Positions 3,335 through 63,659 of a DNA stretch of 64,000 nucleotides are shown one piece after another (position 1 is the first letter of the stretch; every line of letters begins with the position of its first letter). Below the pieces are notes generated by a model that saw nothing but the letters and a program-made list of their open reading frames with translations, made no database searches and was not told the origin of the DNA. The stretch covers positions 62,001 through 126,000 of the forward strand of contig SUYC01000003.1 of NCBI GenBank assembly GCA_015060625.1. The letters run 5' to 3'. Made by a program: the position numbers and the translations under genes. Source of the stretch: Xylanibacter ruminicola. Lineage in GTDB: Bacteria; Bacteroidota; Bacteroidia; Bacteroidales; Bacteroidaceae.

Positions 3335-5737
3335 ATGAATAGACTATTGTTATCAGTTATCGGGGTTGCAAGTATCAGCCTTTCGGCAGCAGCCCAGACA
3401 CAAATTCAGGAGGTGCCCTTCACTCAGGTTCACCTCAACGACGGATTCTGGTCGCCACGTATCGAGATCAATCGTACCGTCAGCATCCCCTCGGCCTTCC
3501 ATGAGTGCGAGGTGAATGGTCGTTTCGACAACTTTGCCATCGCTGCAGGTTTGATGAAAGGTGAGCACAGGGGCGACTTCTCGTTCGATGATACCGATCC
3601 TTACAAGGTTATCGAAGGTGCCTGCTACTCACTCGCCGTACATTACGATGCCAAACTCGATCATTATCTCGACTCAGTGATTAACATCATCGCCAAGGCT
3701 CAGGAGCCCGATGGCTATCTTACTACGTGTGTTACTAATAAATGTACGCGCCTGAGCGGATGGTGGGGCACACACAAGTGGGAGAAGATTAACTCGCACG
3801 AACTCTACAACTCTGGTCACCTCATCGAGAGTGCCGTTGCCCACTATCGTGCTACAGGCAAGAAGACATTCCTGAATGTGGCTATCAAAAATGCCGACCT
3901 GGTTTGCAAGACCTTCGGACCTAACGAGGGTCAGATTCATCGTCCGGGTGGACATCCTATCATCGAGATGGCGCTCTGCAAGCTGTATAAGGTAACTGGC
4001 AACAAGAAATATCTGGAAGGTGCCAAGTATTTCGTGGATGAGACAGGTCGTTGTACCGATGGTCATCATCCTTCGGAGTATTCGCAGGACCATATGCCTA
4101 TCTTGCAGCAACAGGAGATAGTAGGTCATGCCGTGCGTGCAGGCTATCTGTACAGTGGTGTGGCCGATGTGGCAGCACTCACTGGCGACAAGGCTTATTT
4201 TGAGGCCCTTAAGCGCATTTGGGAGAATATGTCTTCGAAAAAGCTTTTCATCACAGGCGGTATAGGCAGTCGTCCGCAGGGCGAGGGCTTCGGACCTAAC
4301 TACGAACTGTATAACCACACGGCTTATTGCGAAACATGTGCTGCTATCGCCAATGTTTACTGGAACTATCGTATGTTCCTGGCTACAGGCGAGAGCAAAT
4401 ATATCGACGTTTGCGAGCGTGCACTATATAATAATGTGTTGAGTGGTGTATCGCTGAGCGGCGATAAGTTCTTCTACGACAATGTGCTGGAGAGCGATGG
4501 CGAACACGAGCGCCAGAAGTGGTTCGGTTGTGCCTGCTGTCCAGGAAACATCACCCGTTTTGTGGCTTCGGTACCTGGCTATATGTATGCCCTGCAGGGT
4601 AGGGACATCTACGTAAACCTGTATGCACAGGGCAAGGCTAAGATCGGTAAGGTAGAGCTGGAGCAGACCACCGACTATCCTTGGGATGGCAAGATCCGTA
4701 TCAAGGTAGCGAAGGGTGGTGGTAAGTTCGCCATCAAACTGCGCATCCCAAGTTGGCTGAAATCATCACCGACAAATAACACTCTCTATTTTTATAACGA
4801 TGCAGCCCCTGACTTTGCCATTACTGTTAATGGCAAGCAGGTGGCCGCAGGCAACACAGACTACGCTACCATCACTCGCAACTGGAAGAAGGGCGATGTG
4901 ATTGACATCGATTTCCCCATGAATGTGCGTCGCATCGTGGCTAACGACAATGCCGAGGACGATCGGGGTAAGGTGGCTCTGGAGCGTGGCCCTATCGTGT
5001 TCTGTCTCGAAGGTTCGGATCAGGCTGACGGCAAGGTGTTTAATAAGTATATCCTGAATGCCGCTGCCATTACAGCTCAGTACGACGCTAACCTGCTGAA
5101 TGGGGTTATCACCCTCAGTGGCGATGCCAAGGAGCTGCAGCAGGATGGCACCATCAAGGATGTGAAGTTCCGTGCTATACCTTATTCAACCTGGAACAAC
5201 CGTGGCGCACAGCAGATGGAAGTCTGGGTAGCCAATACCCCAGCCAAGGCTGTTGCCACACCTGCAGAGACTATCGCCAGCAAGGCTATGACCTTCAGCA
5301 ATCGTGGTCCTATCCAGAACGATGCGCCCGAGACTGCCCCCGTTGATTCATGGGCAGGTGGTGTGAACGATCAGTGGGAGCCCAAGCGCTCATCTGATAT
5401 CTCAAAGCCCTATCACTACTGGTGGCTGAAGCGTGGAACTACCGAGGCTGTCAGTTACCAGTTCGACAAGGAGTACGAGGTATCTAACGTGCAGGTATAC
5501 TGGCTCGAGTTCGATCATTACGATGGCGACTTCCGCACACCAGAGTCGTGGGCACTCTACTATAAGGATGCCAAAGGCGAGTGGCAGGAGGTTGAAGACC
5601 ATAGTCCTTACACCGTACAGAAGGATTGCTACAACAGTGTTGACTTCAAACCCGTACGCACCACAGGATTAAAGATTCTGGCTAAACTCCGCAAGGGCGA
5701 AAGTGGTGGAGTCCTGGAATGGAAAGTAAACAAATAA
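3335..5737 (+). CDS. GH127-like beta-L-arabinofuranosidase (DUF1680 family) with C-terminal extension
   Basis: 800 aa, signal peptide; EVPFTQVHLNDGFWSPRIEINR, CYSLAVHYDAKLDHYLDSVI, WFGCACCPGNITRF motifs. Confidence 0.9.
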   Translation: MNRLLLSVIGVASISLSAAAQTQIQEVPFTQVHLNDGFWSPRIEINRTVSIPSAFHECEVNGRFDNFAIAAGLMKGEHRGDFSFDDTDPYKVIEGACYSLAVHYDAKLDHYLDSVINIIAKAQEPDGYLTTCVTNKCTRLSGWWGTHKWEKINSHELYNSGHLIESAVAHYRATGKKTFLNVAIKNADLVCKTFGPNEGQIHRPGGHPIIEMALCKLYKVTGNKKYLEGAKYFVDETGRCTDGHHPSEYSQDHMPILQQQEIVGHAVRAGYLYSGVADVAALTGDKAYFEALKRIWENMSSKKLFITGGIGSRPQGEGFGPNYELYNHTAYCETCAAIANVYWNYRMFLATGESKYIDVCERALYNNVLSGVSLSGDKFFYDNVLESDGEHERQKWFGCACCPGNITRFVASVPGYMYALQGRDIYVNLYAQGKAKIGKVELEQTTDYPWDGKIRIKVAKGGGKFAIKLRIPSWLKSSPTNNTLYFYNDAAPDFAITVNGKQVAAGNTDYATITRNWKKGDVIDIDFPMNVRRIVANDNAEDDRGKVALERGPIVFCLEGSDQADGKVFNKYILNAAAITAQYDANLLNGVITLSGDAKELQQDGTIKDVKFRAIPYSTWNNRGAQQMEVWVANTPAKAVATPAETIASKAMTFSNRGPIQNDAPETAPVDSWAGGVNDQWEPKRSSDISKPYHYWWLKRGTTEAVSYQFDKEYEVSNVQVYWLEFDHYDGDFRTPESWALYYKDAKGEWQEVEDHSPYTVQKDCYNSVDFKPVRTTGLKILAKLRKGESGGVLEWKVNK

Positions 5738-5776
5738 AACCCAAAATAAAATCATTAAACCTAAAAACAAATTGGT

Positions 5777-8752
5777 ATGAATAAGCATTTATTATGTTTG
5801 CTTCTGTTGGGCGGCGCCGTTTCGGGCTATGCTGCAGAAGGTACATTGTCAGCCGTTGCTGCCATTACTCAGCAAGGTGTGACAGTAAAAGGTGCAGTCA
5901 AGGACGCTAAAGGCGAGCCGATTATCGGCGCCACAGTAACCGAAAAGGGCACCAAGAACGCAACCGTTACCGATTTCGACGGTAACTACTCTCTTAACGT
6001 ATCGAGCCGCAATGCCGTGCTCGTAGTAACTTACATCGGCTACAACACTCAGGAGGTGAAAGCCGGTAGCGACGTAACTCTCGAGGAGGACAACGCTCTG
6101 CTGAACGAGGTTGTTGTCATCGGTTATGGCACCCAGCGCAAGGGCGACATCACCTCAGCTATCACCAGTGTCAAGGCCGAGGATTTTGCGCAGGGAAACA
6201 TCCATGATGCGGGCGACCTGATTAAGGGTAAGGTGGCTGGTCTCACTATCTCTAACGGCTCGGGCGACCCCAGTGTAGCCTCCAGCATCCGCCTGCGTGG
6301 TATCATTTCTCTCTATGGTGGCAACTCTCCACTCGTATTGGTCGATGGTCTGGAGGGTAGTCTGAGTTCTGTTGCGCCTGAGAATATCGAGAGTATCGAC
6401 GTGCTGAAGGATGCATCGGCAGCAGCTATCTATGGTACGCGTGGTGCTGCAGGTGTGATTCTTGTAACCACCAAGGCCGGCAAGCGCGAGGCCACTACTA
6501 CCGCCAATTACAGTGGCTATGTTTCGTTAGCTACATTCGGAAAGAAACTCGACATGATGGATGGTTCTGATATCCGTGCTGGAAAGACTAACTATACCGA
6601 TCGCGGCTACGACACCGACTGGCTCGATGCTGTATCGCGCACAGCCCTTACCCATAACCATAACGTCAATGTCAGCGGTGGTAACAAGAGTACCTCTTAC
6701 AATGCCGATTTTACCTATCGCGACCAGCAGGGTGTGTTCATCAATACCTATAGCAAGGAGATGCGCTTCAATGGCGGACTGAGCCACTGGATGTTCAACG
6801 ATATGCTGAAGTTGCAGTTCAACATCCTGAAGCGCTGGCACGAGAATGGTCCTGTGAATGCTGCCAGTCAGCAGGTGTATCGCCAGGCCTTGATGCGCAA
6901 TCCAACCGAGCCCATCTATGCCGAGGATGGCAACTGGTACGAGAACTTTGGTATCAACTACTATTATAACCCAGTAAGCATCCTGAACGAGCAGACTGGC
7001 GAATACAAGACCGAAAGCACCCGACTGACAGGTAATATCACTTTGGAGCCCATCCGCGGCTGGCAGACAAATCTGATGCTCTCTACCGAGCGTTACAATG
7101 CCCACGACGAGGGCTACCAGTCGTCGAAGTATTACGGTCAGCGTGCTGAGTACCGTACGGGTTATGCCTACCATAGCTATAATTATAATAAGACCAACAA
7201 TCTGGAGCTTACTTCGACCTACAAGCACCAGTGGGGCGACCACCGTTTCGAGGCACTCGTGGGTTACAGCTACCAGTATCAGGTGGATGAGAACTTCTAT
7301 GCCAACAATACCAACTTCCTCAACGACTTCTTCCAGTATAACAATCTGGGTGTAGGTCAGTATCTGAAGGATGGTAAGGCCGGTATGGGTAGTGGTAAGA
7401 GCGATGACAAACTGGTTGGTTTCTTCGGTCGTGTTAGCTACGGTTTTGCCGATAAGTACAACGTACTGCTGTCTATGCGACGCGAGGGTTCTTCAAAGTT
7501 CGGAGCTAACCACAAGTGGGGTTCGTTCCCATCAGCATCTCTCGGATGGACCATCTCTAACGAGAAGTTTATGCAGGGCACCAAGTCGTGGCTCGACAAC
7601 CTGAAGCTGCGCGCTGGTGTGGGCGTAACGGGTGTCATCCCCAGTGGTCGTTATCTGTCGCTCACCACTTGGGCATTAGGTTCGCCTTACTATTATGATA
7701 ATGGTACCTGGAAACAGGGTTTGAAGGTTGACCAGAACCCTAACCCTGACCTGAAGTGGGAGAAATCAACCGAGTATAATGTGGGTATCGACTTTGCCGT
7801 ACTTGGCGACCGCATCTGGGGTAACATCGATGTGTATCGTAAGAAGACTGTCGATATGCTGTGGTGGTACGACGTGCCTGTTCCACCAAACCTCTACAAC
7901 CAGACTTTGGCCAACGTAGGCGAGATGCGCAACCAGGGTATCGAGGTGGCTATCAATGCCATTCCCGTGCGTACTAAGGATTTTGAGTGGAAGACCACTG
8001 CTACCTTTGCGCACAATGCTACCAAGCTGCTCAGTCTGAGCAACGACCTCTATGAAACTGCCAACAAGCACTATATCGCCTACCTTGGTGAGCCTATCTC
8101 ACTCTCTACACAGATTATGGAGGTGGGTAAACCTCTCGGACAGTGGTATGGTCTGAAGTCAGTTGGCGTCAGCGAGAATGGTCTCTGGCTGATTGAGAAT
8201 CCCACCACTGGTGCTATCGAGGAATTCAACGATAACATGCTGACCGATAAGGAGACTTATTACCAGAACCTGGGTAATGCTATCCCCAAAATCAATATCG
8301 GTTGGAGCAACACCTTTAAGTATAAGGACTTCGACCTGAACATGCAGTTCACCGGTCAGTTTGGCTACAAGATTCTGAACGAGGCCCGTGCCTACTATCA
8401 GAACAATGCCGTGACTTATAACCGCTTGAAAGATGCCGCCGTGGCTCCCTATGCCGATGGTAATGTGCTGAAGCCTGCTCAGAAGCAGACCTTTGTGAGC
8501 TACTACCTGAGCAATGGTAACTATCTGAAACTCGCTAACCTGACCTTAGGTTATAATGTGCCGTTGAAGGCCAACAAGTATGTAAAAGCCGTACGTGCTT
8601 ACCTCTCGGCCGACAATGTGTTCACCATCACTTCCTACAACGGTTTGGATCCTGAGCTCTCGAATGGCGATCCCCAGTACTCTGGTATCGACAGCCGCGA
8701 CAAGTATCCCACTATCCGCACTTACACATTTGGATTAAATGTTACATTCTAA
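5777..8752 (+). CDS. SusC/RagA family TonB-dependent outer membrane transporter
   Basis: 991 aa; N-terminal carboxypeptidase-like domain (VKDAKGEPIIGATVTEKGT), TonB box/plug (NEVVVIGYGTQRKGDITSAI), C-terminal YPTIRTYTFGLNVTF. Confidence 0.97.
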   Translation: MNKHLLCLLLLGGAVSGYAAEGTLSAVAAITQQGVTVKGAVKDAKGEPIIGATVTEKGTKNATVTDFDGNYSLNVSSRNAVLVVTYIGYNTQEVKAGSDVTLEEDNALLNEVVVIGYGTQRKGDITSAITSVKAEDFAQGNIHDAGDLIKGKVAGLTISNGSGDPSVASSIRLRGIISLYGGNSPLVLVDGLEGSLSSVAPENIESIDVLKDASAAAIYGTRGAAGVILVTTKAGKREATTTANYSGYVSLATFGKKLDMMDGSDIRAGKTNYTDRGYDTDWLDAVSRTALTHNHNVNVSGGNKSTSYNADFTYRDQQGVFINTYSKEMRFNGGLSHWMFNDMLKLQFNILKRWHENGPVNAASQQVYRQALMRNPTEPIYAEDGNWYENFGINYYYNPVSILNEQTGEYKTESTRLTGNITLEPIRGWQTNLMLSTERYNAHDEGYQSSKYYGQRAEYRTGYAYHSYNYNKTNNLELTSTYKHQWGDHRFEALVGYSYQYQVDENFYANNTNFLNDFFQYNNLGVGQYLKDGKAGMGSGKSDDKLVGFFGRVSYGFADKYNVLLSMRREGSSKFGANHKWGSFPSASLGWTISNEKFMQGTKSWLDNLKLRAGVGVTGVIPSGRYLSLTTWALGSPYYYDNGTWKQGLKVDQNPNPDLKWEKSTEYNVGIDFAVLGDRIWGNIDVYRKKTVDMLWWYDVPVPPNLYNQTLANVGEMRNQGIEVAINAIPVRTKDFEWKTTATFAHNATKLLSLSNDLYETANKHYIAYLGEPISLSTQIMEVGKPLGQWYGLKSVGVSENGLWLIENPTTGAIEEFNDNMLTDKETYYQNLGNAIPKINIGWSNTFKYKDFDLNMQFTGQFGYKILNEARAYYQNNAVTYNRLKDAAVAPYADGNVLKPAQKQTFVSYYLSNGNYLKLANLTLGYNVPLKANKYVKAVRAYLSADNVFTITSYNGLDPELSNGDPQYSGIDSRDKYPTIRTYTFGLNVTF

Positions 8753-55395: not shown

Positions 55396-56511
55396 TTAAA
55401 GCTCGTTCTCCTTCATGCGCTCGGCATTCTCGGCTACAGTCAGCGCATCAATCATGGCCTGGATATCGCCACCAAGGAATCCCTGCAGATCGTGAGTGGT
55501 ATAGCCGATGCGATGATCGGTCACACGTCCCTGTGGGAAGTTATAAGTGCGAATCTTGGCCGAACGGTCGCCGGTAGATACCAGACTCTTACGACGGTTT
55601 GCGATATCGTCCACGTATTTCTGGTGCTCCTTGTCGTAGATAAAAGTGTATAAGCGTGAGAGTGCGCGCTCCTTGTTCTTAGGCTGGTCGCGGGTTTCGG
55701 TACACTCAATCAGAATCTCCTCGGTCTCGCCAGTGTTAGGGTTCTTCCACATGTAGCGCAGGCGTACACCCGATTCTACCTTATTCACGTTCTGACCACC
55801 GGCACCACTCGAACGGAAGGTATCCCATTTGATTTCACCTTCGTTCACATGTACCTCAAACTTATCTGCCTCAGGCAGCACAGCTACAGTGGCAGCACTC
55901 GTCTGCATACGTCCGTTCGATTCGGTTACAGGCACACGCTGTACGCGGTGCACACCACTCTCGTACTTCAGTGTGCCGTAAACATCGGCACCTGTTACCG
56001 AGAAGTCAACCTCTTTAAAACCACCAACAGCACCTTCGGAAACGTAGGTGATTGATACCTGCCAGCCTTTCGACTCGCAGTAGTTCTTGTACATCTTAAA
56101 CAGGTCGCCAGCAAACAAAGCAGCTTCGTCGCCACCCGTTCCTGCACGAATTTCCATTTCCACGTTCTTTGCGTCCTCAGGATCCTTTGGTATCAGTGCA
56201 ATCTTTATCTCTTCCTCCAGTTGTGGCTGTAACTCCTCGTTGACAGCCAATTCCTCGCGTGCCATCTCCTTCATCTCAGGATCGGTCTCGTTAGCCAATA
56301 TGTCCTTAGCCTCCTTAATACCGTTAAGGCATGCAATATAACGTTTGCGGGCGTCCATAATATCGCCCAGGTCCTTGTATTCCTTTGTAAGTTTTACAAA
56401 TCGCTGCTGGTCGGCAATTACGGCGGGGTCGGTAATCAGGGTCGAAACCTCCTCGAATCGTGCCTCCAGTCCATCCAGTTTCTGTAGAATGCTGTTACTT
56501 GTTTCTGCCAT
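55396..56511 (-). CDS. prfA: Peptide chain release factor 1
   Basis: RSSGAGGQNVNKVESGVRLRY GGQ motif; RIGYTTHDLQGFLGGDIQAMIDAL. Confidence 0.98.
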   Translation of the reverse strand: MAETSNSILQKLDGLEARFEEVSTLITDPAVIADQQRFVKLTKEYKDLGDIMDARKRYIACLNGIKEAKDILANETDPEMKEMAREELAVNEELQPQLEEEIKIALIPKDPEDAKNVEMEIRAGTGGDEAALFAGDLFKMYKNYCESKGWQVSITYVSEGAVGGFKEVDFSVTGADVYGTLKYESGVHRVQRVPVTESNGRMQTSAATVAVLPEADKFEVHVNEGEIKWDTFRSSGAGGQNVNKVESGVRLRYMWKNPNTGETEEILIECTETRDQPKNKERALSRLYTFIYDKEHQKYVDDIANRRKSLVSTGDRSAKIRTYNFPQGRVTDHRIGYTTHDLQGFLGGDIQAMIDALTVAENAERMKENEL

Positions 56512-56638
56512 TTTATTATATATAATATTATTTGGGCGGCAAAGTTACAAAAAAAAGCGAAGAATTCAAAATATTTTTTGGTTTTAATGCTGTTTTTCTA
56601 TATTTTATCGTTATCTTTGCAACCAAAATTACAAAGTT

Positions 56639-58687
56639 ATGGTATTACTTAAAAAATCTTTTCGGTTTTCATGGATAGCCCTTGTAGCAACCGTGATGCT
56701 TCTCTCATCGTGTGACAATGCTTTGCAGAGTCATGATTCTGATTTCGATCGTGTGCATAACATCATGCGGTATTCTGATTCCATCCCTCGTACTGTTGAT
56801 AGCTTGATGGCGCTGGGTGAAATTAATCAGATGTGTGCCGACTTTTATAATATGTCGTATTACATCAGCCGTGATTTAAATCGTTCTTGTGTGATTGCTG
56901 ATAGCGCCTTGGCGCGTCCTGTCGTCACAGAACGGGATCGCATCTATCACTTCCTGATAGCAGCCAATAACTCTGAGTTGGACTGCGCGAGTCGCCACTA
57001 CGAGTCGGGCTTGCGAAAGGCTCAGCAGTTGGTTAATAGTGTTGATACCAGTTTTATCAATCGTCACTATCTTTTGCAAACGGGCTATCTGTTGGCCTAT
57101 AGTAATCTGGCAGTTTGTTATATCAATCTGGAGCGTTTTGCCGAGGGTGAAAAGTACATGCAGCAGGTGATGACGCTGATCGATCAGTTTGAGAAAACGT
57201 CTGTAAACGACTCTGTTGCACAGCATAATTGGGCGTCTAAGCGTACGCAATTTGCTGTTGCCGCTATGATTTCTTTTTGTAATATGCACCAATGGGATAG
57301 GGCAAAGGCGTGGATGAATCGTGCTGAAAAAAGTCTTCAGGATATGGCGAATAATCCTCGTGTCGATAAGTCGCATTACCCCATGTTCTGCTATCAGGTT
57401 AGTTGTGTTAAAGCCTATATTCTCGAAAAAGCAGGTCATCATCAGGAGGCTGCTCTGGCCTATGAAGAATTTATGAAGAACCCCTTTTCTAAATCAGTGG
57501 TTGCTCGTATCAATTCGGTTTCATATCTCAATAGTAGTCATCGCTATGAGGAGGCTGAGCGTAATATTAATGATGTTGAAACTGTGATAGGTCAGGTGGG
57601 CTTGAAGATGGATCTTGAGACACTTAACGGTATTGTTAAGTTAAAGTTCGATGCTCATTTGGGTGCAGGTCATCGCGATTCGGCTCTTGCCGTAGCTACA
57701 CGCATTCTTGCCAGACTCGATTCGGCTGAGGTGTGGCAGAGACGTGACAAGACAGCCGAGTTGGCTACAATCTATGATATGAGTAAGAAGGATGCCGAAA
57801 TTGCCGAAAAGGAGGCTAAGCTGAACCAGATGCGCATCGTTGTGCTGTTGATTGTGATTGTGCTGCTTTTGGTGTTCTTCTTTATTTATGCTTTCACTCG
57901 CCGTCGTGCGGCTGCCAGCCTGAACCAGAAGAACGAGCAGCTGTTGGTAGCCAATGCCCGTGCCGAGGAAGCATCGCGCATGAAGACCAAGTTTATCCAG
58001 CAGATTTCGCATGAGTTCCGTACCCCTCTTAATGTGCTTTCGGGTTTTGCTCAGGTGCTCACGGATTCGGATGCCTATCTCGACGAGAACGTGCGCCAGG
58101 ATGCCAACCACCAGATTCTCGAAAATACCAATCGCATTACCAACTTGGTTAATAAGATGCTGGAACTGTCGGATGTTAGTAGTCGTACAGTGCTCAACCT
58201 TACCGATCAGGTTACAGTTGAACAGATAGCGACCGACGCCGTCGATGCATCGGGTATAGCTGATGCCGATCATTTGGCGTTCGAAATGCAGACTGTCGGC
58301 GAGGCTTCGTCAGTGCGCATCACCACCAATAAGCGTGCAGCTGTTCGTGCGCTCGCGCTGTTGCTCGATAATGCACGCAAGTTCACAGCGCCAGCCGAGG
58401 CCTATGGTCATCATGATGCTGCTGATAAAAAACAGCGTGCCGTCTTGAAGGTAAGCATTACCGATACGCTTGTGCAGTTCATCGTCGAAGATACAGGTAT
58501 AGGTGTTCCTGCCGATCAGGCGGAGCGCATCTTTGATGAGTTTGTACAGCTCGATGAGTATTATGATGGTACAGGTATCGGACTCACGGTAGCCCGCAGT
58601 TTTGCCCGTCGTTTGGGTGGTGATGTGAGGCTCGACACCACTTATACCGCTGGTGCCCGCTTTGTGATGACACTTCCGAGAAAATAA
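56639..58687 (+). CDS. TPR-type membrane sensor histidine kinase
   Basis: Lipoprotein-like N-terminus MLLSSCDN, helical repeats, TM IVVLLIVIVLLLVFFFIYAF, H-box QQISHEFRTPLNVLSGFAQVL, EDTGIGVPADQAERIFDEFVQ...GTGIGLTVARSFARRLGG; no receiver domain. Confidence 0.93.
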   Translation: MVLLKKSFRFSWIALVATVMLLSSCDNALQSHDSDFDRVHNIMRYSDSIPRTVDSLMALGEINQMCADFYNMSYYISRDLNRSCVIADSALARPVVTERDRIYHFLIAANNSELDCASRHYESGLRKAQQLVNSVDTSFINRHYLLQTGYLLAYSNLAVCYINLERFAEGEKYMQQVMTLIDQFEKTSVNDSVAQHNWASKRTQFAVAAMISFCNMHQWDRAKAWMNRAEKSLQDMANNPRVDKSHYPMFCYQVSCVKAYILEKAGHHQEAALAYEEFMKNPFSKSVVARINSVSYLNSSHRYEEAERNINDVETVIGQVGLKMDLETLNGIVKLKFDAHLGAGHRDSALAVATRILARLDSAEVWQRRDKTAELATIYDMSKKDAEIAEKEAKLNQMRIVVLLIVIVLLLVFFFIYAFTRRRAAASLNQKNEQLLVANARAEEASRMKTKFIQQISHEFRTPLNVLSGFAQVLTDSDAYLDENVRQDANHQILENTNRITNLVNKMLELSDVSSRTVLNLTDQVTVEQIATDAVDASGIADADHLAFEMQTVGEASSVRITTNKRAAVRALALLLDNARKFTAPAEAYGHHDAADKKQRAVLKVSITDTLVQFIVEDTGIGVPADQAERIFDEFVQLDEYYDGTGIGLTVARSFARRLGGDVRLDTTYTAGARFVMTLPRK

Positions 58688-58696
58688 CCCAAAAAT

Positions 58697-58730
58697 AAAG
58701 TGGCAGTGAGAATTTCCTCGCTGCCACTTT
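58697..58730. terminator. Bidirectional terminator between histidine kinase and convergent small peptide gene
   Basis: AAAGTGGCAGTGAG-aatttc-CTCGCTGCCACTTT with T-tract on both strands. Confidence 0.9.
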
Positions 58731-58748
58731 GTTTTTCTTGCAGTAACT

Positions 58749-58925
58749 TTACTTCTTGGTGTTCTTTTTATTCTTTTTGCTGGTCTGAGAATTGTTTGTA
58801 TTCTTAGTACCAGTAGTAGTGAACAGTGTAGTGGGAGGTATCAAATTCATAACACCACCAGGAAACATTATCCATCCGTCACCGCCTTTTACAGCATTAA
58901 GCTGCGCTCTTTCTAATTGTTTCAT
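58749..58925 (-). CDS. Double-glycine leader peptide (putative secreted bacteriocin or signalling peptide precursor), 58 aa
   Basis: Manual translation: MKQLERAQLNAVKGG|DGWIMFPGGVMNLIPPTTLFTTTGTKNTNNSQTSKKNKKNTKK*. Leader has L(-12), L(-7), V(-4), GG(-2,-1). Divergent to a C39-ABC exporter. Not in ORF track (below length cutoff). Confidence 0.75.
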   Translation of the reverse strand: MKQLERAQLNAVKGGDGWIMFPGGVMNLIPPTTLFTTTGTKNTNNSQTSKKNKKNTKK

Positions 58926-58985
58926 AATTGTTGATCTAATTAATTTGTAATTTTGAATTATTTAAAAATAGATTTTAAATCTCTG

Positions 58986-58993
58986 CAAATTTA
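58986..58993 (-). promoter_or_regulatory. Candidate -7 element (TAAATTTG) for the GG-peptide gene
   Basis: CAAATTTA on + strand, about 60 bp upstream of the 58925 start; matches TAnnTTTG. Confidence 0.35.
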
Positions 58994-59012
58994 AGCAAAT
59001 AATTTGTTAGCC

Positions 59013-59025
59013 GGTCATAATGACC
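59013..59025. promoter_or_regulatory. Inverted repeat GGTCAT-A-ATGACC in divergent promoter region
   Basis: 6-bp perfect arms around a single base, between peptide gene and exporter gene. Confidence 0.4.
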
Positions 59026-59142
59026 AATTTAATTAATGTAATTTAAGAAAAATATGATAATAGTATTAACGAATCTAAAATTGTGGGGTTATCTGACATT
59101 TTCTTGCTATCTTTGTGGCCAGATTGCTAAAAAACAAGGTAA

Positions 59143-61359
59143 ATGAACAAACCATTCCCAATATTCACTCAACACGATGTGATGGAATGTGGCCCGACCT
59201 GCTTACGCATGGTGATGGCCTATTATGGGCGCAACTACCCGCTGGAACGGTTGCGCGATATGTGTCATATACAGCGCGATGGCGTGTCGCTGCTCGGTGT
59301 TGCTGAGGCTGCCGAACAGTTAGGTATGCATACCACAGGCGTGAAAGCTACGCTGCAACAGTTGGTCGACGAAGTTCCGCTTCCGTGCATCCTGCACTGG
59401 AATCAGGCACATTTTGTAGTGCTCTACGAGGTGAAGCGAACCAAAGAGGGGCTTCAGTTCAAGGTGGCCGATCCTGTAGGTCAGCGCATCACCTATACCG
59501 AGCGCGAGTTTTTGCGTTGCTGGGCTTCTGATACCGAAGAAGGACAGCCCGCTGGTATCGCCCTGATGCTGGAACCGACACCCGATTTTAATCGCGATGA
59601 GTATGTCGAGGATGACAGCGATCGCAAGGCCCGTAAGCGCAGTCTTATGTTGTTGCTGTCGTATATGCAACCTTATAAGAAGCTCATCGCGCAGCTGTTC
59701 TTAGGGCTCACGGTGGTTTCGCTGTTGCAACTGGTGCTGCCTTTTCTGACGCAGGCTATCGTCGATTTCGGTATCTCGCGCCAGGACCTCGGTTTCATCT
59801 TCCTGGTGCTTATTGCGCAGCTGATGCTCATGATAGGTAGCACCTCAGTAGAGTTTATCCAGAGTTGGATACTGCTACATGTTTCTACGCGCGTTAATCT
59901 GTCGCTCTTGTCCGACTATCTGGCCAAGCTGATGCGCTTGCCTTTCAGCTATTTCGATACGCGTCTCACAGGTGACATTCTGCAGCGTATTGGCGATCAT
60001 GGTCGTATCCAGACGTTCCTTACGGGTAGCAGTCTGTCACTGGTATTCTCGCTGTTCAATATCGTGGTGTTCGGTGCTGTTATTCTGATTTACGACTGGC
60101 GCATCTTCTTTATCTTCATGCTGGGCAGTGCACTCTATGTGCTCTGGGTACTGCTGTTCATGCGCCGTCGTGCCAAGCTCGATGCCAAGATGTTTGCCCA
60201 GAACTCGGCTAATCAGAGTAAGATTGTGCAACTCATCGATGGTATTCAGGAGATTAAACTCAACACCTGCGAGCAACAGAAACGCTGGGAGTGGGAGCGT
60301 GTCCAGGCGCGCATCTTTCGTTTGAATATCAAGGGCCTGGCGCTCGATCAGTATCAGGAGTCGGGTGCTACGTTTATCAATGAGGTGAAGAATCTGGTTA
60401 TCACGGCTCTGGTGGCCATACTGGTGCTTCGTGGCGATATGACACTAGGTATGATGCTGTCGGTGCAGTATATCATCGGTAGTCTGAATGGGCCAGTCAA
60501 TCAGCTGGTCGATTTCATCCATCGCTATCAGGATGCCCGCCTCAGTCTGGAGCGTCTGCAAGAGGTGTACGAGAAGGACGACGAGGTGCAGCCCGATCGC
60601 CAGCTTATCAGCGAAGTGAGTGGCGATGGTGATATCCTGATAAAGAATCTTACCTACCGTTACGACAAACTGAACGACAAACCTACACTCGATCATATTG
60701 ATGTGGTGATACCTCACGGCAAGACCACGGCGATTGTCGGACTGAGTGGTAGTGGTAAGACCACGCTGCTCAAGATGATTCTCGGCTTCTATAAGCCCGA
60801 TGCTGGCGAAGTGGTGATTGGCTCGTCGAATCTGGAGAACTACGACAAGCGCGCATGGCGCAAGCATTGTGGTGTGGTGATGCAGGATGGTTTTATCTAT
60901 TCCGATACCATCGCCCGCAATATCGCTGTCGGTTTCGAGGTGATCGATACCGAGCGATTGGTGCAGGCTGCCCGCGTGGCCGAGATCGACGATTATATCC
61001 GTAGGTTGCCGCTTGGTTATAACACCAAGATTGGTGCCGAGGGCAGTGGCTTGAGTCAGGGGCAGAAGCAGCGCATCCTGATAGCTCGTGCCGTGTATAA
61101 GAATCCCGACTACGTGTTCTTCGACGAGGCTACCAACTCGCTCGATGCGCAGAACGAGCATGCCATCATCCAGAATCTGGCTGGCTTCCTGCATAACCGT
61201 ACGTCGCTCATCATTGCCCATCGACTGAGCACGGTAGTAGATGCCGACAATATCTTGGTGATGAGCGAGGGTCGCATTGTCGAGTCGGGTAATCACGCCC
61301 AGCTGTTAGAGCGTCGCGGCGTCTATTACGAACTGGTAAAGAACCAACTGAATGTTTAG
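59143..61359 (+). CDS. Peptidase-domain (C39) ABC transporter, bacteriocin/peptide exporter
   Basis: C39 triad context: QHDVMECGPTCLRMVMAYYG (Cys), HWNQAHFVVLYEV (His), VADPVG (Asp); Walker A GLSGSGKTTL, signature LSQGQKQRILIARA, Walker B YVFFDEAT. Confidence 0.96.
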   Translation: MNKPFPIFTQHDVMECGPTCLRMVMAYYGRNYPLERLRDMCHIQRDGVSLLGVAEAAEQLGMHTTGVKATLQQLVDEVPLPCILHWNQAHFVVLYEVKRTKEGLQFKVADPVGQRITYTEREFLRCWASDTEEGQPAGIALMLEPTPDFNRDEYVEDDSDRKARKRSLMLLLSYMQPYKKLIAQLFLGLTVVSLLQLVLPFLTQAIVDFGISRQDLGFIFLVLIAQLMLMIGSTSVEFIQSWILLHVSTRVNLSLLSDYLAKLMRLPFSYFDTRLTGDILQRIGDHGRIQTFLTGSSLSLVFSLFNIVVFGAVILIYDWRIFFIFMLGSALYVLWVLLFMRRRAKLDAKMFAQNSANQSKIVQLIDGIQEIKLNTCEQQKRWEWERVQARIFRLNIKGLALDQYQESGATFINEVKNLVITALVAILVLRGDMTLGMMLSVQYIIGSLNGPVNQLVDFIHRYQDARLSLERLQEVYEKDDEVQPDRQLISEVSGDGDILIKNLTYRYDKLNDKPTLDHIDVVIPHGKTTAIVGLSGSGKTTLLKMILGFYKPDAGEVVIGSSNLENYDKRAWRKHCGVVMQDGFIYSDTIARNIAVGFEVIDTERLVQAARVAEIDDYIRRLPLGYNTKIGAEGSGLSQGQKQRILIARAVYKNPDYVFFDEATNSLDAQNEHAIIQNLAGFLHNRTSLIIAHRLSTVVDADNILVMSEGRIVESGNHAQLLERRGVYYELVKNQLNV

Positions 61360-61365
61360 CAGAAA

Positions 61366-62652
61366 ATGATGGAAGAAGATAGAATCGAACTACATAGCGA
61401 GGAGGTACAGGACATCATCTCACGTCCGCCATCGTCGTTGATAAAACATGGTATTACAGTTATTGCCGCTGTGGTGGTGCTGGTTGTCATTGGCAGCTTT
61501 ATTTTCCGTTATCCCGATGTGGTGCAGGGCAGGGTGGTAGTCACGGGCGATACCCCTCCCAATCGTATTGTGGCCCGTGCCGATGGCCGTTTGCAGGAGC
61601 TTCGCCTGGCCGATGGTCGGCAAGTATCAAAGGGAGCCATCATCGCTGTGATCGAGAATACCGCCAATACCGATGATGTGGTGAGTGTGAAACAGGCCGT
61701 CGGTAAGCTGTCGGTTAGTGGCGAGCCCATCCCCTTCGCTGCCGATCAGTCGTTGCGTCTGGGCGTGGTACAGGATGCCTATAATCAGTTCTGCGATGCC
61801 GTCGTCAGTTACAATCAGGCCGTTCGTCTCAATATCTATCGCCAACAGATACTGTCGGCACAGAAGGAGCACGCCTCGTTGTTGCGCCACGAAAGTAATC
61901 TCAAACGTCAGCTCGAAATGAGTCAGCAGCAAGCCGATCTGGTCAAGCACGATTGCGACCGTGAAAAAAGCCTGCACGAGCGCAAGCTCACTTCCGATGC
62001 CGAAATGGAGGAGAGCCAGCGCGCGTTGATTTCGGCTCAGCTCTCCGTCGAGCAGGTACGCACCGACATCTCGCAAACCCAACTCAGCATGGCCCAGATA
62101 GATAATCGCCTGGCTGAGCTTCAGGTGCAGTATCAGCAGGATTTGCAGCACGTTACGGCCACGCTGCAGTCGGCGCTCAACACCCTCAAGGTGGCCATCG
62201 GTCAGTGGGAACATCTCTATGCCCTTGTGGCCCCAGCATCCGGCAAACTGTCGTACACCAATGTGTGGGCGGTCAATCAGAATATCACTGCAGGCCAGCA
62301 TATCTTCTCCGTTGTCGAGTCGCGCAAGTCCCACTTTGTGGGTAAGGTGCTTCTGCCAGCCACCGGCTTCGGTAAGGTCAAGGAGGGACAGCGTGTAAAC
62401 ATCATGCTCGATGGCTATCCCTATCTCGAGTTCGGCTATCTGCGTGGCACGGTAAGTGGTCTTTCGGCTGTTGCCAATCAGGATGTGTATGTGGCCACCA
62501 TCTCACTGCCACAGGGGCTGCATACCACCGTAGGTCGTGAACTGCGATTCACTGGCGAGTTGAGCGGTCAGGCCGAGGTCATCACCGAGGACATCAGCCT
62601 CGCCGTCCGCATCATCCAACCCCTGCGGTACATCTTCCATCACAACGTATAA
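61366..62652 (+). CDS. HlyD-family periplasmic adaptor subunit
   Basis: 428 aa; single N-terminal TM, GRVVVTGDTPPNRIVARADGRLQELRLADGRQVSKGAIIAVIEN biotinyl-lipoyl-like half, coiled coil, LVAPASGKLSYTNVWAVNQNITAGQHIFSVV second half. Confidence 0.94.
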   Translation: MMEEDRIELHSEEVQDIISRPPSSLIKHGITVIAAVVVLVVIGSFIFRYPDVVQGRVVVTGDTPPNRIVARADGRLQELRLADGRQVSKGAIIAVIENTANTDDVVSVKQAVGKLSVSGEPIPFAADQSLRLGVVQDAYNQFCDAVVSYNQAVRLNIYRQQILSAQKEHASLLRHESNLKRQLEMSQQQADLVKHDCDREKSLHERKLTSDAEMEESQRALISAQLSVEQVRTDISQTQLSMAQIDNRLAELQVQYQQDLQHVTATLQSALNTLKVAIGQWEHLYALVAPASGKLSYTNVWAVNQNITAGQHIFSVVESRKSHFVGKVLLPATGFGKVKEGQRVNIMLDGYPYLEFGYLRGTVSGLSAVANQDVYVATISLPQGLHTTVGRELRFTGELSGQAEVITEDISLAVRIIQPLRYIFHHNV

Positions 62653-62656
62653 AACA

Positions 62657-62690
62657 AAACAGAGGGTGCCCAGTTGGACATCCTCTGTTT
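62657..62690 (+). terminator. Terminator downstream of HlyD-like gene
   Basis: AAACAGAGG-...-CCTCTGTTT followed by CTTTTGTT. Confidence 0.85.
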
Positions 62691-62696
62691 CTTTTG

Positions 62697-62798
62697 TTAA
62701 TACCCCATACACGAGGTGGCTCCCAATGCCGTCACTATCGCCGTCGCGATCGACGCTATCATCTGCACGATAAATTTAATAGTCTCCTTCTTGCTCAT
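62697..62798 (-). CDS. Smalltalk-like small protein (33 aa)
   Basis: Manual translation: MSKKETIKFIVQMIASIATAIVTALGATSCMGY*; matches remembered Bacteroidales smalltalk family pattern, next to HU-like gene. Absent from ORF track. Confidence 0.8.
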   Translation of the reverse strand: MSKKETIKFIVQMIASIATAIVTALGATSCMGY

Positions 62799-62842
62799 AG
62801 TTACTTTTCGTTTTTTTTAGTTCGTACTTCGGGCCTAAAAAC

Positions 62843-63379
62843 TTAGTCTCCGTTGGGGCCGTCGTAGCCACCGCCTCCGGTGTTGCCGCCGCCATTGCTT
62901 GGCTGATTACCGCCGCCGTTCGATGGCTGGTCAGGATCCTCGATATCGCCGCTATCACCGCTGGTCACACGCTTCAGCACTTTGCCATCCTCGTCCAGGC
63001 AGGTAATCTGGATGCTGGTATTCTTCAGCTCGTCCTTAACGTCCACGTTAGGGGTAAAGATAATGCGACGAACACTGATCAATCCTGCCTTCACGTCCTC
63101 CAGCTCCTCAACAGCCTTACTGCGCACTCCGAATCGCATGGTACCCAGTCCTGGCAGGGGCACTGAGTGGCCCTCGGTGGCCCACGTACGGATTACTTCA
63201 CCTGCAGCATCCCAAGCTGCCTTAATTACACCTGCAGAGATACCCGAGTGGGTGGCTGCCTCTGCGAACACTTTCTTCTCCTGGATAGGGCTATACAGCT
63301 CAGGACGCATAATGAATCGCTTACCAGGTTTGTTGCCGATTTTAAGCTCTCGGCGCTGAGCAATTACTTTAATCGCCAT
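62843..63379 (-). CDS. HU-family DNA-binding protein with Gly/Asn/Pro-rich C-terminal tail
   Basis: FAEAATHSGISAGVIKAAWDAAGEVIRTWATEGHSVPLPGLGTMRFGVRSKAVE; tail QPSNGGGNQPSNGGGNTGGGGYDGPNGD. Confidence 0.88.
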   Translation of the reverse strand: MAIKVIAQRRELKIGNKPGKRFIMRPELYSPIQEKKVFAEAATHSGISAGVIKAAWDAAGEVIRTWATEGHSVPLPGLGTMRFGVRSKAVEELEDVKAGLISVRRIIFTPNVDVKDELKNTSIQITCLDEDGKVLKRVTSGDSGDIEDPDQPSNGGGNQPSNGGGNTGGGGYDGPNGD

Positions 63380-63659
63380 AATTCAATTTGTTTTTAAATA
63401 GTTTGTTTGTTAAATATTTTACTCATTCTCGTTTTGCCGCCTTGGAGTGCAGGTTTCAACAGCTATTAGTACTTTCAATTGTTACTATTAATGCGCGCAT
63501 TTTCTAGATTTAATTCTCGCAATTTTTAGCCTTAATGCCGCTGCTCTTACTCTCTCAATTTGACAATGCAAAGGTACGAAAAATTCAGATACAAAACAAT
63601 AGTTCCCCTCGATTATTTTTCATAAAATCAAAAATATTTTTTAGACTACTTCGTCGGTG

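Follow-up and report, generated by a model that had tools for sequence, protein, structure and literature searches.

A cysteine-free peptide with a double-glycine leader, probable substrate of a divergently encoded C39 exporter in Xylanibacter ruminicola

A 58-aa reading frame on the minus strand of the window (the whole 64,000-nucleotide stretch of Xylanibacter ruminicola DNA that was analysed) is very probably, to judge from its sequence and its neighbours, a double-glycine substrate that is processed and exported by the C39 exporter encoded divergently from it. The most likely use of the exported peptide, proposed with slightly less than even confidence, would be against other bacteria; the explanation as a whole, from exporter substrate through to antibacterial action, is given an even chance. 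Bacteroidales have so far yielded few small antibacterial or signalling peptides that are unmodified, and the locus supplies a compact, synthesizable candidate of 43 aa together with its own exporter, from a genus found in abundance in many guts and rumens.

The precursor gene lies at 58749..58925 (-) and, as an earlier note on this DNA had read it, translates from 58925 to 58749 into exactly 58 aa and a stop, the leader MKQLERAQLNAVKGG being followed by the core DGWIMFPGGVMNLIPPTTLFTTTGTKNTNNSQTSKKNKKNTKK. The 15-aa leader (58881..58925, -) carries every element of the ComA/LagD-type pattern that had been claimed for it, namely L at -12, L at -7, V at -4 and GG at -2/-1, and fits the consensus of leaders beside homologous exporters, LSKAQMNAIKGG, to which LERAQLNAVKGG is the counterpart in the window. 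The core (58752..58880, -) comprises 43 aa; its N-terminal half is hydrophobic, and its Lys-rich, low-complexity C-terminus forms the tail KKNKKNTKK. Its predicted mass of 4741 Da, pI of about 10.4, net charge of +6 and zero Cys bear out the earlier description of a Cys-free peptide with a basic tail. The gene is AT-rich (38% GC vs 49% for the window), and its codon use falls between in-frame and off-frame values.

Written as DNA (ATGAAR-x-L-x4-L-x2-[hydrophobic]-x-GG), the leader pattern occurs once on both strands of the 3.72-Mb genome, at this gene (58925..58749), and not at all in a reversed control; 399 congeners hold 46 matches, or roughly 0.1 per genome; the majority of those translated are ordinary proteins, not precursors. 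A leader profile of 12 positions was trained on 29 leaders, all from precursors encoded next to homologous C39 exporters, the window ORF being excluded. This profile gives the window ORF 26.5 bits, the training leaders spanning 15.8-32.2 bits; in the 278 kb scanned, with 5,255 ORFs, no rival exceeds 13.1 bits, and the maximum over 400,000 random 12-mers is 14.7 bits. From the held-out score and the agreement with the consensus, it follows that homologous C39 exporters are accompanied by a conserved leader type, and the reading thus came through a check that had been set beforehand as a possible refutation. By two leader patterns, the genome yields no other candidate substrate of the exporter; other QxN..GG motifs were considered as precursors and rejected, as they sit within unrelated frames. 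Judged by its leader statistics, its position and its terminator, the 58-aa ORF is evidently more than a chance ORF. A profile drawn from the neighbours of homologous exporters detects precursors that are missed by whole-protein searches and family libraries.

No homologue of the core or of the full precursor was found in 300 congeners, in a 380-genome family sample (which overlaps the 300) or in IMG/VR, the genome comparisons being made at the level of species representatives. The weak matches to the precursor (E 0.003-0.1) are partial and mostly broken by stops. NCBIfam gives no match to the precursor at E<=1, PADLOC and PHROGs give none to the peptide, and Pfam returns a single low-complexity match below threshold. 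Unlike the leader type, the core is apparently not conserved among the genomes searched.

The C39 exporter that had been placed divergently from the peptide is encoded at 59143..61359 (+). Its 738-aa product combines Peptidase_C39, ABC_membrane and ABC_tran domains (Pfam), and its C16, H90 and D110, all intact, line up with the corresponding Cys, His and Asp of 4ry2, the best solved relative. The genome encodes no second C39-ABC protein, its other C39 match being a 235-aa frame that scores 24.5 bits. The gene for a 428-aa HlyD-family adaptor (61366..62652, +) starts 6 nt past the exporter; its product matches NCBIfam TIGR01843 at 4.9e-27, which is under the curated cut-off, and Pfam HlyD_3 above cut-off. 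Candidates for the outer-membrane factor are found elsewhere in the genome (23 OEP domain hits).

No exporter more than 65% identical to that of the window was found in the 399 congeners or the GTDB species set. In a quick tree with long branches, it clusters with full support with exporters of uncultured Prevotellaceae (L014-L016), of G282 (L154) and of two others. The cargo at L014-L016 consists of Cys-containing peptides with about two Cys each, that at L017 is a Cys peptide of the radical-SAM type (TIGR04149), and that at L154 is a set of three tandem Cys-free peptides (KAPKIKNNFYPIEDEETPL and kin). The L154 peptides (757-1174, +) are of the GG type, with cores that start with KAPK and end in TPL or TPM, and the adjoining exporter is 62% identical to that of the window. 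L018, from Bacteroides sp. 214, has a minimal cassette in which a GG peptide rich in Lys and free of Cys (5731-5910, +) immediately precedes an exporter (61% identical) and a HlyD gene, with a TPR/HTH-type regulator upstream. It appears that cargo turns over quickly among related exporters, the window peptide being one of several Cys-free variants.

The peptide gene and the kinase gene downstream of it converge on a common terminator hairpin (58691..58736, assigned to neither strand), which has 20-nt arms that are 90% complementary, starts about 13 nt past the peptide stop and folds on the minus strand with -23.5 kcal/mol (z = -5.35). The Bacteroidetes -7 consensus is TAnnTTTG, and a motif scan found weak candidates for it, correctly oriented for both divergent genes, namely TAAATTTG at 58986..58993 (-) for the peptide and TATCTTTG at 59108..59115 (+) for the exporter. 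At least one such element per strand arises with p about 0.04 on shuffling, and the matches are suggestive only as promoters of the two genes. A 13-bp perfect palindrome upstream of the peptide, GGTCATTATGACC, was rejected as a signal; it is not enriched, and the reversed control has more matches.

After prfA, the window carries in order the kinase, the peptide, the exporter, HlyD, smalltalk and an HU-type gene. None of the neighbouring genes encodes a modification enzyme, no thiol oxidoreductase is adjacent to the cassette, and no recognisable small membrane-protein ORF that might serve as an immunity gene adjoins the precursor. The 33-aa 'smalltalk' protein (62697-62798, -; NCBIfam NF033879, 8.8e-13) is encoded by a tiny, easily overlooked ORF that adjoins the HU-type gene (62843-63379). 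Close relatives lack the cassette at the corresponding site beside prfA. G339 and G256, with a prfA about 98% identical, have other genes on this side, in a block common to both, and the window genes beyond the HU-type gene have no counterpart in that block; G218 and G293 have different genes at the site, with a 43%-identical kinase there in G293. The position looks like a variable insertion site, and the cassette looks as though it was gained in the lineage of the window, loss elsewhere being the alternative. When window positions 56511-63400 are set beside L215-L218, the flank of prfA holds differing genes across several close relatives.

The proposed mechanism starts from what can be read directly, a Bacteroidales-type double-glycine leader that adjoins an exporter whose C39 triad is intact and which is accompanied by a HlyD adaptor. 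By established PCAT biochemistry, the leader would dock in the C39 domain and be cleaved after GG, and the 43-aa core would exit via the exporter, HlyD and an outer-membrane factor whose gene lies elsewhere in the genome. Given the lack of both Cys and a nearby gene for a modification enzyme, the core would be linear and unmodified; the earlier judgement that disulfide, lanthipeptide and sactipeptide maturation are unlikely holds as well, as the core is Cys-free and the locus offers no chemistry for any of the three. In the last and least certain step, the cationic core would act on other bacteria, like class II microcins and bacteroidetocins. The exporter-substrate reading is favoured by the Cys-free GG peptides that also stand beside the homologous exporters at L154 and L018, and by the held-out profile, which places the window leader 12 bits above any rival ORF. 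Against the explanation as a whole stand the lack of homologues of the core, the absence of an adjacent immunity gene, the intermediate codon use and the transport of signals and RiPPs by C39 exporters as well. The earlier interpretation stands in so far as it took the ORF for a double-glycine precursor served by the C39 exporter next to it, and its further suggestion of a bacteriocin or pheromone is so far unsupported; no core homologue, adjacent immunity gene or specific receptor link was found. Little weight attaches to the missing immunity gene, as a bacteroidetocin can inhibit the very strain that makes it (PMC10352776). It may be speculated, with considerable doubt, that the core is the first of a new class of antibacterial peptides secreted by Prevotella, Cys-free and Lys-tailed, with microcin-like PCAT/HlyD export and self-protection without a dedicated immunity gene.

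The main rival to an antibacterial role is a pheromone function, in which the mature core would carry a signal between cells and the convergent TPR-type histidine kinase might be its sensor; this reading is a serious candidate although an unlikely one. The kinase (56639..58687, +; lipobox, TPR-like part, TM, HisKA and HATPase_c by Pfam) is an attractive candidate for a peptide receptor. Its gene is adjacent to that of the peptide, with one terminator between them, and the failure to find an adjacent immunity gene would suit a signal; moreover, a published observation of TPR genes in the vicinity of Bacteroidales PCAT clusters came with the suggestion of a pheromone (PMC10352776), which counts in favour. 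The receptor kinase of a double-glycine pheromone is expected to travel with the peptide and the exporter, but homologues of this kinase are widespread, the five neighbourhoods of such homologues that were read are all without a C39 exporter, and no response regulator is adjacent; that homologues stand without exporters speaks against the kinase as a dedicated receptor. TPR-type regulators near C39 exporters, found in 15 of 120 loci, also speak for a signal, but these differ in type, having an HTH output, and the controls were few (0 of 8). These TPR lipoprotein-like regulators with an HTH-like output occur at L014-L016, L018, L153 and ten other loci, and it is possible that they sense peptides. 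A further 57-aa ORF at L222 (1782-1955, +) has a different GG-type leader (ELSEEELDKAAGG), a core with Pro and Lys/Arg and no Pfam match, and lies near a run of TPR-type histidine kinases.

A secreted peptide using the same export route might instead have another non-toxin role, for example at the surface or in the biofilm matrix. Double-glycine peptides with roles in biofilms or communication are known (PMC10233263), which counts for this alternative, as does the high diversity of cargo among related exporters, but the locus offers nothing positive for it, and it is considered improbable. Still less probable is a modified RiPP in which Thr, Asn or Trp is altered by an enzyme encoded elsewhere in the genome: related exporters do carry radical-SAM-type precursors, as at L017, but the precursor here matches no NCBIfam model and has no modification enzyme among its neighbours. 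The low-complexity C-terminus, the codon use and the unconserved core would also be compatible with a spurious or decayed ORF, which is regarded as very improbable in view of the leader statistics, the position, the terminator straight after the stop and an intact exporter with no other candidate substrate. An exported double-glycine peptide that acts on other bacteria is kept as the preferred, tentative reading.

Both the leader, hydrophobic at -12, -7 and -4 with GG, and the adjacent exporter, with its Cys/His/Asp triad, agree with what marks a PCAT substrate. Bacteroidetocins have at least two Cys in the core, and their exporter is accompanied by a TM-protein gene (5-TM) and usually by one for a thiol oxidoreductase (PMC6671954). 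The window peptide resembles them in its occurrence in Bacteroidales, in a GG leader of the 15-16-aa kind, in the adjoining C39 exporter and in a short, presumably unmodified core (PMC6671954). Unlike them, it has zero Cys, and the neighbours checked against the bacteroidetocin gene set (kinase, HlyD, smalltalk and HU-type gene) include neither a TM-protein gene nor a thiol oxidoreductase, a HlyD adaptor being present instead; identity with a bacteroidetocin is ruled out, the defining Cys, 5-TM gene and thiol oxidoreductase being absent (PMC6671954). Class II microcins combine a 15-18-aa GG/GA signal, a PCAT, a membrane fusion protein, an adjacent immunity gene and a core of 60-90 aa (PMC10233263). 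With these, for example microcin V, the cassette shares the leader length, the triad-bearing C39 exporter, the membrane fusion protein and an outer-membrane factor elsewhere, but it differs in the lack of an adjacent immunity gene, in a core of 43 aa vs 60-90 aa, in the divergent gene order and in the phylum. Lacking an adjacent gene for a modification enzyme, a thiol oxidoreductase or immunity, the cassette is evidently neither a bacteroidetocin locus nor a complete class II microcin system, though its export layout is microcin-like. The TIGR04149 GG-type radical-SAM RiPP precursors of Bacteroidales have a related GG leader and are exported by related PCATs, but the window peptide lacks their profile match, their Cys-rich core and a nearby radical-SAM gene. 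The cassettes at L154 (G282) and L018 (Bacteroides sp. 214) share with that of the window the leader type, the C39 exporter with HlyD and Cys-free, Lys-containing cores, but the core sequences (KAPK...TPL and EVKKEEAPKKK...DIPL) are unrelated to that of the window, and gene order and orientation differ. The export mechanism would be a familiar one and the peptide itself apparently new. GG precursors next to PCATs are an already described theme in Bacteroidales (PMC10352776), so the window peptide would add a new member to a kind that is known.
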